Notes under the pieces: model-generated | The model's database searches: none | Told to the model about the DNA's origin: nothing | Seen by the model: only the letters and a program-made list of their open reading frames with translations | In this document: in pieces, positions 11,200 to 29,356 of the stretch | How the letters are laid out: each line of letters starts with the position of its first letter | How positions within the stretch are numbered: position 1 is the first letter of the stretch | Translations under genes and position numbers: made by a program | Assembly: GCA_016787895.1 (NCBI GenBank) | Contig: JAEUTN010000020.1 | Span: 186,001-250,000 of the forward strand | Source of the DNA: Bacteroidia bacterium | GTDB taxonomy: Bacteria; Bacteroidota; Bacteroidia; B-17B0; Aurantibacillaceae | DNA length: 64,000 nt | Direction: 5' to 3'

Positions 11200-11524
11200 A
11201 CTGGTATAATGTTATAAAAGGAAAAAGTAACGTAAGGCGTAAAACTTTTTTGTATCATACATTATTTGGAATGCGAAGAGTTTTTTAAACTGTTTGGGTT
11301 CATTTATTGGTTTATGATTTGCTTAGGCTTTCTTGCTAAAAGAATCATAATATGTAAATAGCTAATCCAATACATTGGAACTCAACTTTACGATGGTTTG
11401 GTTTGTTTCAATTGTTTGGGAAAGTGAATATTCTGTCATACGAATATGAGGGAAAACTTCGTTGAAATTACTGTTATATGGGTCATATTTGTATTCCTCG
11501 ACGTAAATTCTCACTTCACTTCAC
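11200..11524. other. AT-rich intergenic stretch without recognisable gene
   Basis: I find no open frame, tRNA or strong hairpin here. It separates the OmpA-domain gene from the tRNA-Phe repeat array. The left boundary of the array at 11525 is abrupt: the sequence before it has no similarity to the sequence before the second copy. Confidence 0.5.
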
Positions 11525-11702
11525 TGGTGCCTCCAGGATTCGGCTACGCCAGTTCCTTTGACAAACCGCTCCTGCAAATAGAATAAACTTTTGCTTCGCA
11601 AAAGTAATTTTTGTTTTCCGCCGGCTTTGAAAGCATAGCTTTCACGCCTGCAGAAAACAAAAAGACCTTTCACCAACGGTGAAAGGTTTATTCTGCTTGA
11701 TG
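11525..11702 (-). repeat. 178-bp tandem unit 1: tRNA-Phe 3' end plus tail
   Basis: The unit begins (plus strand) with TGGTGCCTCCAGGA, the exact last 14 bases of tRNA-Phe including the discriminator, then diverges from the tRNA. It contains the hairpin CTTTTGC/GCAAAAG, a T-tract/A-tract inverted repeat and a terminator-like hairpin (11665-11687). It matches unit 2 base for base except for 5 positions, with no length change. Confidence 0.9.
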
Positions 11703-11880
11703 TGGTGCCTCCAGGATTCGGCTACGCCAGTTCCTTTGACAAACCGCTCCTGCAAATAGAATAAACTTTTGCCTCGCAAAAGTAATTTTTGTTTTCCGCC
11801 GGCTTTGAAAGCATAGCTTTCACGCCTGCAGAAAACAAAAAAACCTTTCACCGTTGGTGAAAGGTTTATTCTGCTTGATG
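11703..11880 (-). repeat. 178-bp tandem unit 2, abutting tRNA-Phe
   Basis: Second copy of the same unit, again starting with the tRNA 3' end and running exactly up to the discriminator base of the intact tRNA-Phe. Differences from unit 1 are two single substitutions and the three loop bases of the terminator hairpin (GTT here, AAC in unit 1, on the plus strand), which are reverse complements of each other. Confidence 0.9.
11831..11867 (-). terminator. Rho-independent terminator of tRNA-Phe
   Basis: On the minus strand, 14 bases after the tRNA, a 12-bp stem AAACCTTTCACC/GGTGAAAGGTTT with loop AAC is followed by a T-rich tract (TTTTGTTTTC). A copy with one substitution in the tract is present in unit 1 (11665-11687). 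Confidence 0.88.
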
Positions 11881-11953
11881 TGGTGCCTCCAGGAATCGAA
11901 CCAGGGACACAAGGATTTTCAGTCCTTTGCTCTACCGACTGAGCTAAGGCACC
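11881..11953 (-). tRNA. tRNA-Phe (anticodon GAA)
   Basis: 73 bases on the minus strand, no encoded CCA. The acceptor stem GGTGCCT pairs with AGGCACC, discriminator A at 11881. Anticodon stem AAGGA/TCCTT encloses CTGAAAA, giving anticodon GAA. The D arm is normal (GCTC/GAGC). The T arm reads CCTGG-TTCGATT-CCTGG, which leaves a central U-U mismatch in the T stem. Divergent from coaX. Confidence 0.93.
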
Positions 11954-28363: not shown

Positions 28364-28561
28364 TTTTCGCTTCGAAAGAGCAAGCTCCTTCTCCGCTTAA
28401 AACAAGTTTTTTTGATTGGTTTTCGATGAATTCTATGCCAGATTAGCTACGCTGATCTGGGTATAGGATGTTGCGAATAGCAAAAGCCTTATTTGCTTCG
28501 CAAATCAGGTTTTTTTGTTTTTTCGCTTCGAAAGAGCAAGCTCCTTCTCCGCTTAAAACAA
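28364..28561. repeat. Two 42-bp direct repeats inside tRNA-Pro tail copy A
   Basis: A 42-bp sequence (it starts TTTTCGCTTCGAAAGAGCAA and ends CGCTTAAAACAA) occurs identically at 28364-28405 and 28520-28561, 156 bp apart. Each contains the hairpin GAGC-AA-GCTC. A diverged version of the first one also stands ahead of copy B, so the duplication inside the unit is older than the duplication of the whole unit. Confidence 0.85.
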
Positions 28562-28609
28562 AAAAACCTTTCACTTTCGTGAAAGGTTTTTGTCGTTCGT
28601 CGGGGTGGC
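28396..28609 (-). repeat. tRNA-Pro 3'-flank duplication, copy A
   Basis: 214 bp that match 29079-29292 with 9 substitutions and no insertion or deletion. Its last ten bases (28600-28609, TCGGGGTGGC on the plus strand) are the 3' end of tRNA-Pro; beyond them the match to the tRNA stops. It holds a terminator-like hairpin (28567-28586), a 14-bp inverted repeat GGTTTTTTTGTTTT/AAAACAAAAAAACC (28508-28521 and 28555-28568) and the hairpin ATTTGC/GCAAAT. No protein-coding gene is visible between 28294 and 28679. Confidence 0.9.
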
Positions 28610-28610
28610 T

Positions 28611-28637
28611 GCTGACGAAGCGCTCGCGCTTGTCAGC
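28611..28637. repeat. Imperfect hairpin next to the tRNA-Pro stub
   Basis: GCTGACGAAGCGC and GCGCTTGTCAGC pair with one bulged base, loop TC. It directly follows the tRNA 3'-end stub of copy A. Confidence 0.75.
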
Positions 28638-28639
28638 AT

Positions 28640-28673
28640 CGAGACAATTTTCCTGGCAGGAAAATTCGTCTCG
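28640..28673 (-). repeat. Strong hairpin behind the GIY-YIG gene
   Basis: CGAGACAATTTTCCTG pairs with CAGGAAAATTCGTCTCG with one bulged C and a one-base loop. It lies 6 bases after the stop of the GIY-YIG gene on the minus strand; it may act as a terminator or protect the mRNA 3' end, although no T-run follows. Confidence 0.8.
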
Positions 28674-28679
28674 ACAGAT

Positions 28680-28934
28680 TCAAGTCTTAGACTTGTATTT
28701 TTTTACAAATTCTGTTAACCTGGTCTTTGATAGATTTTTCAGTTTTTTCTCCAGTTCCATACTTTCGGATCGACTGGTTTTTTGAATCACCAATATTAGT
28801 TCCCAGGGTTTGTAAAGATTAGTGAACCCTTTGTGATTTGAGTTATGGTGTTTAAAACGAGCTTCTAAATCATTTGTTTGCCCAACATAATATTTATCGG
28901 CAGAAATGGAATATAACACATAGACAAAAAACAA
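28680..28934 (-). CDS. Solitary GIY-YIG endonuclease (URI family)
   Basis: 84 residues, the normal size of stand-alone GIY-YIG domains. VYVLYS (4-9) and YYVGQT (15-20) are the GIY and YIG strands. Arg26, His29/His30 and the glutamate in MELEKKLK (Glu60/Glu62) fit the catalytic Arg, His and metal-binding Glu. The start is taken as TTG 28934, because the only nearby ATG is in another frame and is followed at once by a stop. Related proteins cut DNA, but no partner domain is present. The gene lies exactly between two copies of the tRNA-Pro 3' flank, which suggests a link to that duplication. No operon partner. Confidence 0.85.
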   Translation of the reverse strand: MFFVYVLYSISADKYYVGQTNDLEARFKHHNSNHKGFTNLYKPWELILVIQKTSRSESMELEKKLKNLSKTRLTEFVKKYKSKT

Positions 28935-29078
28935 GGCTTCACATAGATTTAATAGTTAAACCAAAATAGCAAAAAATTCTTCTACAGAAATGGAAAATGA
29001 AGTGTACTGCAATCCTTTTTGGCTGATCAATTCATGGTTTTTTCGTCTTTTTCATCGAAAGTGCAGGTTCTATATCCA

Positions 29079-29292
29079 CTTAAAACAAGTTTTTTTGATT
29101 GGCTATCGATGAATTCTATGCCAGATTAGCTGCGCTGATCTGGATATAGGATGTTGCGAATAACAAAAGCCTTATTTGCTTCGCAAATCAGGTTTTTTTG
29201 TTTTTTCGCTTCGAAAGAGCGGGCTCTTTCTCCGCTTAAAACAAAAAAACCTTTCACTTTCGTGAAAGGCTTTTGTCGTTCGTCGGGGTGGC
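29079..29292 (-). repeat. tRNA-Pro 3'-flank duplication, copy B (includes tRNA 3' end)
   Basis: Partner of 28396-28609: 205 of 214 positions identical, no length change. It carries the functional tRNA-Pro terminator, a 14-bp inverted repeat (29191-29204 and 29238-29251) and a perfect hairpin AAAGAGC-GG-GCTCTTT between its arms, where copy A has one mismatch. The stretch from the GIY-YIG start to this copy (28935-29078) contains no further gene. Confidence 0.9.
29237..29271 (-). terminator. Rho-independent terminator of tRNA-Pro
   Basis: On the minus strand the stem CCTTTCAC/GTGAAAGG with a GAAA tetraloop (29250-29269) is followed by TTTTTTTGTTTT, 13 bases after the tRNA. Confidence 0.88.
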
Positions 29293-29356
29293 CAGATTCG
29301 AACTGACGACCTCCACATCCCAAATGTGGCGCGATACCGGGCTACGCTACACCCCG
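29283..29356 (-). tRNA. tRNA-Pro (anticodon TGG)
   Basis: 74 bases on the minus strand. The acceptor stem CGGGGTG pairs with CACCCCG, discriminator A at 29283, CCA not encoded. Anticodon stem CCACA/TGTGG encloses TTTGGGA, giving TGG. The T arm GTCAG-TTCGAAT-CTGGC is normal. Confidence 0.95.

Follow-up and report, generated by a model that had tools for sequence, protein, structure and literature searches.

A tRNA-Pro gene in the window, the 64,000-nucleotide stretch of a Bacteroidia genome analyzed here, hosts a small unit that carries its own GIY-YIG nuclease gene. We think it fairly probable that this unit and its relatives are selfish, free-standing elements of the homing-endonuclease type that live in tRNA genes, bring a part of the tRNA along, and leave one functional copy in place. 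The initial annotation had proposed a small element in which a GIY-YIG nuclease is joined to repeats of tRNA tails, and the existence of such an element, with hairpins and with repeats that derive from tRNA, is supported; the general arrangement recurs in more than 100 loci. The arrangement in the window exceeds chance: its double hairpin recurs in a related genome (G330) and its general layout throughout the wider set of loci.

The host gene of the window element is an intact, uninterrupted tRNA-Pro(tgg) at positions 29282–29356 of the minus strand (ARAGORN; Rfam RF00005, 63.2 bits), and all the features that follow lie on the same strand. Its final 11 nt, together with a 203-bp tail that includes the terminator hairpin, form the first copy of a 214-bp repeat (29079–29292). 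A spacer apparent from the sequence (28935–29078) leads from the tail to the nuclease gene (28680–28934), which encodes 84 amino acids from a TTG start. Behind the gene stands a double hairpin, each half of which folds with one bulged base. The stem and bulge of the first hairpin (28638–28676; −19.9 kcal/mol) are kept at another locus (L236), where the second (28610–28638; −16.4 kcal/mol) is conserved as well. The second hairpin abuts a displaced 11-nt stub of the tRNA-Pro 3′ end (tRNA positions 65–75; 28599–28609), which with its own tail makes up the second repeat copy (28396–28609), and an additional partial tail repeat of 42 bp (28364–28405) matches the tail at 100%. The initial annotation had described a duplication containing the tRNA 3′ end and, between its copies, a GIY-YIG gene with two strong hairpins, and both descriptions were confirmed. 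The two copies differ at exactly nine positions without a gap, similarity stops at both edges, and, given the position of the tRNA, each copy opens with its last 11 nt. The encoded protein matches PF01541 with an E value of 9.5e-16 and 58.3 bits against a gathering cut-off of 22.6, which places it in the GIY-YIG superfamily, and its catalytic residues are intact in a 19-member alignment.

Across the family, units of approximately 300–700 bp combine one minimal GIY-YIG gene with one or two short palindromes and with a fragment of the target tRNA, which brings along its promoter or terminator flank. Alignment of the tRNAs to their loci reveals two layouts, each of which leaves one intact tRNA. 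Layout A runs from promoter, intact tRNA, and terminator to the nuclease gene, a palindrome, the 3′ part of the same tRNA, and a terminator; its mirror image, layout B, runs from promoter and tRNA 5′ part with palindrome to the nuclease gene, a promoter, and the intact tRNA. The gene in layout A usually starts right behind the tRNA (median distance from tRNA end to domain, 48 nt), and its end often overlaps the D-arm remnant. The window element follows layout A, but its stub is short (11 nt), its tail is long, and its double hairpin is of another kind. The nuclease gene is free-standing in the sense that it lies outside any intron or intein, at its presumed target tRNA. Units also occur in tandem arrays of up to five that are 94–100% identical, such as five 315-bp units at tRNA-Asp in G314 (99.6–100% identical), five 365-bp units at tRNA-Met, and four 322-bp units at tRNA-Pro; what the arrays multiply is the defective rather than the intact tRNA copy. 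At one further locus (L065, G019:C38), a GIY-YIG gene has a tRNA-Pro(cgg) gene on either side, and the two tRNA genes, although they differ in their 5′ parts, are both scored as intact.

The placement of these genes is far from random, a check that the initial annotation had called for. PF01541 matches 13 places in the source genome, two of them inside long UvrC- or DnaQ-like genes, and seven of the 11 short GIY-YIG genes lie less than 400 bp from a tRNA in a genome with 38 tRNAs in 3.6 Mb. When the relatives are included, 38 of 83 short genes fall within 500 bp of a tRNA, every one on the tRNA's strand (38/38). A five-row alignment served as the profile for the contig scan; among 296 Bacteroidota genomes, 194 contain matches to the profile built from the linked proteins, with at most 18 copies per genome. 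Among 155 domains in 110 loci chosen by protein similarity alone, 123 are located within 500 bp of a tRNA gene, again all on its strand (123/123), and many of the domains that are not tRNA-linked sit at contig ends or are later members of arrays. In the complete genomes G314 and G208, a hand count that includes array members finds 22 of 34 short genes linked to a tRNA, where rough arithmetic puts the chance expectation at about 1–2%. Linked loci also occur in contigs labeled Chlorobiota, Ignavibacteria, Cloacimonadota, Acidobacteria, WOR-3, candidate phyla, and others, most of these loci outside Bacteroidota being on contigs of metagenome-assembled genomes. Three loci (L276, L277, and L194) carry linked-type genes for which the stretch examined contains neither a tRNA nor any other Rfam RNA, and a search for other RNA genes beside unlinked copies returned none except one tRNA (L186).

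The points at which the tRNA copies break off are similarly constrained. Of 82 junctions at which an insert is bounded by tRNA fragments, 78 fall in one of three arms (anticodon, 38; T, 21; D, 19) and four elsewhere. At 12 of the 82, the loss amounts to exactly 17 nt, which corresponds to the length of the anticodon arm; the T arm loses 8 nt at six junctions, all in tRNA-Asp; and nine are clean insertions into the D loop. The preferred arm depends on the isoacceptor, with Arg almost always entered in the D loop, Val and Pro mostly in the anticodon arm, and Asp mostly in the T arm. These observations do not support one part of the initial annotation, in which the duplication was read as tail copying anchored at the tRNA 3′ end: in general, the copied segment is a tRNA half with its junction in the anticodon, T, or D arm, and 5′ halves are copied too. 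In the defective copy, one arm of the cloverleaf is swapped for or broken by a palindrome, often of the form TCCCG..CGGGA. The inserts are mostly short palindromes and have a C-rich start in 71 of 82 cases, and TCCC..GGGA occurs at 50 of 84 stub junctions compared with 23 of 1680 random control windows from the same loci. We considered whether TCCCG palindromes might be confined to tRNA loci and dismissed this, as they are strongly enriched and dispersed genome-wide, many of them far from tRNAs. Counts of TCCCG-N4-10-CGGGA against backward controls are 75 versus 1 in G314, 51 versus 16 in G000 (the window genome), and 34 versus 7 in G001.

Comparison of the same site among relatives reveals occupied, empty, and decayed states. 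The guaA neighborhood is present in 35 of 40 genomes of the genus, and among the tRNA-Pro/guaA loci examined there, only the window genome and G330 have a GIY-YIG gene beside tRNA-Pro. The empty site that the initial annotation had suggested seeking exists in G332, a near relative (≈89% identical) in which the same tRNA-Pro is followed by a short tail only, and in other members of the genus. At the G330 site, tRNA-Pro is followed by a tail, the gene, the double hairpin, a tRNA 3′ stub from the T loop onward, another tail, and a truncated second gene. The nuclease proteins of the window and G330 are 57.5% identical, and both hairpin stems and both bulges, including the bulged bases, are kept between the two; because the double hairpin is preserved at this level of protein identity, the gene and the hairpins seem to be a linked pair. 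A decayed site is seen in G316, where a remnant encoding VYILYS follows tRNA-Ala.

The GIY-YIG catalytic residues (Y, YxG, R, H, and E) are invariant across 19 diverse members, and the linked nucleases are under strong purifying selection, with a median dN/dS of 0.08 over 40 pairs drawn from different loci, which are not independent of one another. Unlike I-TevI, the proteins are only 80–100 amino acids long and have no DNA-binding extension. Their closest solved folds are those of UPF0213/YhbQ and SLX1 (1zg2, E value 2e-13; 1ywl). The short GIY-YIG genes of the same genomes that are UPF0213-like by eye are not tRNA-linked and form a separate clade, and the unlinked subfamilies as a whole branch apart from the tRNA-linked proteins in the tree. 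Taking one row per locus, the linked proteins require 61 changes of isoacceptor on the tree compared with 95 when labels are shuffled (shuffle minimum, 87), and in 56 of 147 cases, the protein most similar to a given one outside its own taxonomic family sits at the same isoacceptor (shuffled mean, 9; maximum, 21). Because protein clades track the isoacceptor across families, the protein, or something inherited together with it, specifies the tRNA, and part of this link may come from old vertical descent. We considered a phage origin for the window gene and dropped it: the 84-amino acid protein has no match at an E value of 1e-3 among 50,697 phage records, and the viral contigs searched yielded only six remote relatives. 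A few members of the alignment weakly match phage homing-endonuclease families.

Partial tRNA copies also occur where no nuclease gene is present. In the source genome, they accompany five of the seven tRNAs with a GIY-YIG neighbor and six of the 31 without one (one-sided hypergeometric p ≈ 0.014). The initial annotation had asked whether duplications are equally common without the gene; they are commoner with it but present without it as well. Its example of tRNA-Phe in the window holds as a duplication, since two 3′-end stubs with tails, 178 bp apart, follow the tRNA-Phe at 11880–11953 (whole array, 11500–11953), but no GIY-YIG gene is located there. The Phe tail array and the six gene-less tRNAs with partial copies indicate that a duplication can persist without the gene. 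Several of the gene-less copies carry TCCCG palindromes, and such copies may be remnants or gene-less derivatives, a possible origin for the tRNA-Phe stubs as well. The tail of tRNA-Pro (29079–29281) resembles that of tRNA-Phe (11600–11880) in its terminator, second, and third hairpins, and tails of a similar kind follow tRNA-Pro in many members of the genus (L221, L230, L237, and L243–L245); the two may represent a separate tail family. At another locus (L102; G001:C1:2144797-2155366), approximately eleven 89-bp tandem repeats lie upstream of an intact tRNA-Val without a nuclease gene. Each repeat unit contains a promoter, tRNA-Val positions 1–28, the palindrome TCCCGACTAACGTCGGGA, and a few bases of the T side, and further on stands a chimeric tRNA that ARAGORN calls Cys(aca).

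Gene-less copies such as the partial ones at six of the 31 tRNAs, the Phe array among them, and the 11-copy array at tRNA-Val in G001 are what would be expected if tRNA genes were simply hotspots of tandem duplication, with a structure-specific GIY-YIG gene carried along as a by-product of recombination rather than acting as its agent. We regard this explanation as unlikely, given that hitchhiking hardly yields the same strand in 123 of 123 cases, that the junctions are confined to three tRNA arms and come with palindromes, and that the protein clades are isoacceptor-specific with a dN/dS of ≈0.08.

The homing-type explanation that we prefer builds on features observed directly, namely the architecture, the junctions, the shared strand, the specificity of protein clades for tRNAs, purifying selection, and the gene-less and decayed sites. 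From the sequences, we infer cleavage, the exact position of the cut, spread driven by repair, and a role for the hairpins. In an empty allele of its tRNA gene, the nuclease would cut within a single arm, be it the anticodon, T, or D arm, and the chromosome that carries the element would serve as the template for repair of the break. The incoming unit would supply the missing part of the tRNA so that one intact tRNA remains, and the displaced part would stay beyond the nuclease gene in a defective state, its arm now a palindrome. Tandem arrays could result from repeated rounds or unequal crossing-over and might also arise by recutting and repair off a neighboring copy. The nuclease gene is probably expressed from the tRNA promoter, which fits its invariable location on the tRNA's strand.

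Self-protection is the weak point of the homing model. The arm is destroyed in the pseudo-tRNA of occupied loci, yet the intact tRNA is the same at occupied and unoccupied sites: tRNA-Pro is identical between the window and G332, as is tRNA-Ala between G001 and the decayed site in G316, and neither comparison reveals a resistance mutation. Because the tRNA is unchanged, the restored gene might be recut. The distribution of the elements, moreover, may stem from horizontal spread or from ancient vertical descent followed by loss. A more far-reaching proposal, which we put forward tentatively and consider doubtful, is that the nuclease recognizes the hairpin arm of the tRNA gene, either as a folded single strand or through the arm sequence, with the palindrome as a substitute for the arm. 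The family would then comprise isoacceptor-specific lineages that coexist with essential tRNA genes across several phyla, as well as gene-less derivatives of tRNA fragment and palindrome amplified in trans, and would constitute a new class of mobile element.

The missing arm can also be interpreted at the RNA level. In a system resembling a toxin-antitoxin pair, the GIY-YIG protein would cut an arm of the cognate tRNA, and the transcript of the arm-swapped pseudo-tRNA would restrain it as an uncleavable decoy; the pseudo-tRNA does lack exactly the arm of the cognate tRNA and lies on the same strand, sometimes in tandem copies. We find this quite improbable. The nearest solved folds are those of UPF0213 and DNA nucleases such as SLX1, and to our knowledge, no GIY-YIG domain has RNase activity. 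In addition, the layout A pseudo-tRNA is missing its 5′ acceptor strand and shares sequence with the reading frame of the nuclease, and it therefore cannot fold as a full tRNA. About as improbable is a domesticated function, in which the host would keep the nuclease for amplification or repair of tRNA genes. Strong purifying selection agrees with such a role, as does SegB, which is reported to amplify tRNA genes to the benefit of its carrier (PMC13096335). The same site, however, is patchily occupied within one genus and includes decayed copies, and what multiplies in the arrays is the defective tRNA, not the intact one.

Within tRNA genes, the anticodon and T loops are established target sites of integrases, and layout A resembles an attL/attR pair, with the 3′ part of the tRNA restored and a displaced fragment left, as in tyrosine-integrase elements. 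A satellite mobilized in trans by a tyrosine integrase at such sites, with the GIY-YIG gene as cargo, is nonetheless very improbable, because the 300–700-bp unit has no integrase and a palindrome at its junction, D-loop junctions, the mirror 5′-part layout B, and many isoacceptors occur, and the supposed cargo protein itself tracks the target tRNA. No site-specific recombinase is encoded within the units, which hold the GIY-YIG gene only.

If the homing-type explanation is true, these units are a common selfish element of bacterial chromosomes that inhabits highly conserved, essential genes, and they use a non-splicing route of invasion, which is to bring part of the gene along. The family would account for the abundance of small GIY-YIG genes and of incomplete tRNA genes in many Bacteroidota genomes, supply annotators with a rule for pseudo-tRNAs, and make available dozens of natural nucleases that appear specific for tRNA genes. 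Judged from the literature searched, it has apparently not been described so far. On tRNA-linked GIY-YIG genes of bacterial chromosomes, a search that mostly covered papers outside subscription returned only work on phage SegB, and the tRNA and Bacteroidetes passages of a 2006 survey of GIY-YIG proteins mention no tRNA-gene neighbors.

Several known systems share features with these elements. In REP/RAYT systems and the Ssn GIY-YIG proteins of Neisseria, a small transposase or nuclease is associated with short palindromes. The analogy to REP-type repeats drawn in the initial annotation stands as a loose one of logic, a homing endonuclease such as SegB being the better parallel. The elements do not belong to the RAYT/REP class, as their protein is a GIY-YIG nuclease rather than an HUH tyrosine transposase and their palindromes lie inside tRNA copies. 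Similar to mobile group I introns with homing genes in tRNA anticodon loops, they invade a tRNA gene at or near the anticodon and carry a homing-type nuclease. Unlike in these introns, the working tRNA is uninterrupted, and its function is kept by duplication of a tRNA part instead of splicing. A group I intron at the window locus was rejected, because no intron model matched the tRNA-Pro region and the tRNA is intact.

The closest known case is SegB of T-even phages, a free-standing GIY-YIG homing endonuclease that cuts in tRNA genes (PMC13096335, PMC2330249); under selection, 718-bp repeats of tRNA-Tyr and segB arise (PMC13096335). A search of phage records with the window protein at an E value of 1e-3 revealed no sequence relationship to the SegB family. 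In contrast to SegB, a phage gene whose cleavage has been demonstrated, the elements described here are chromosomal, and their cleavage is a prediction. They also differ in that they duplicate a part of the tRNA, swap an arm for a palindrome, and build arrays of defective tRNA copies, and the passages of the SegB literature consulted mention neither a layout with a tRNA part nor an arm swap. What they share with SegB is a free-standing GIY-YIG gene that adjoins tRNA genes of many isotypes and is amplified in tandem with them, and the SegB motif RAWTSGAAC, on the other strand, resembles the T loop. The chromosomal elements resemble SegB in logic, a parallel that would tie them to the recently reported amplification of phage tRNA genes by SegB.
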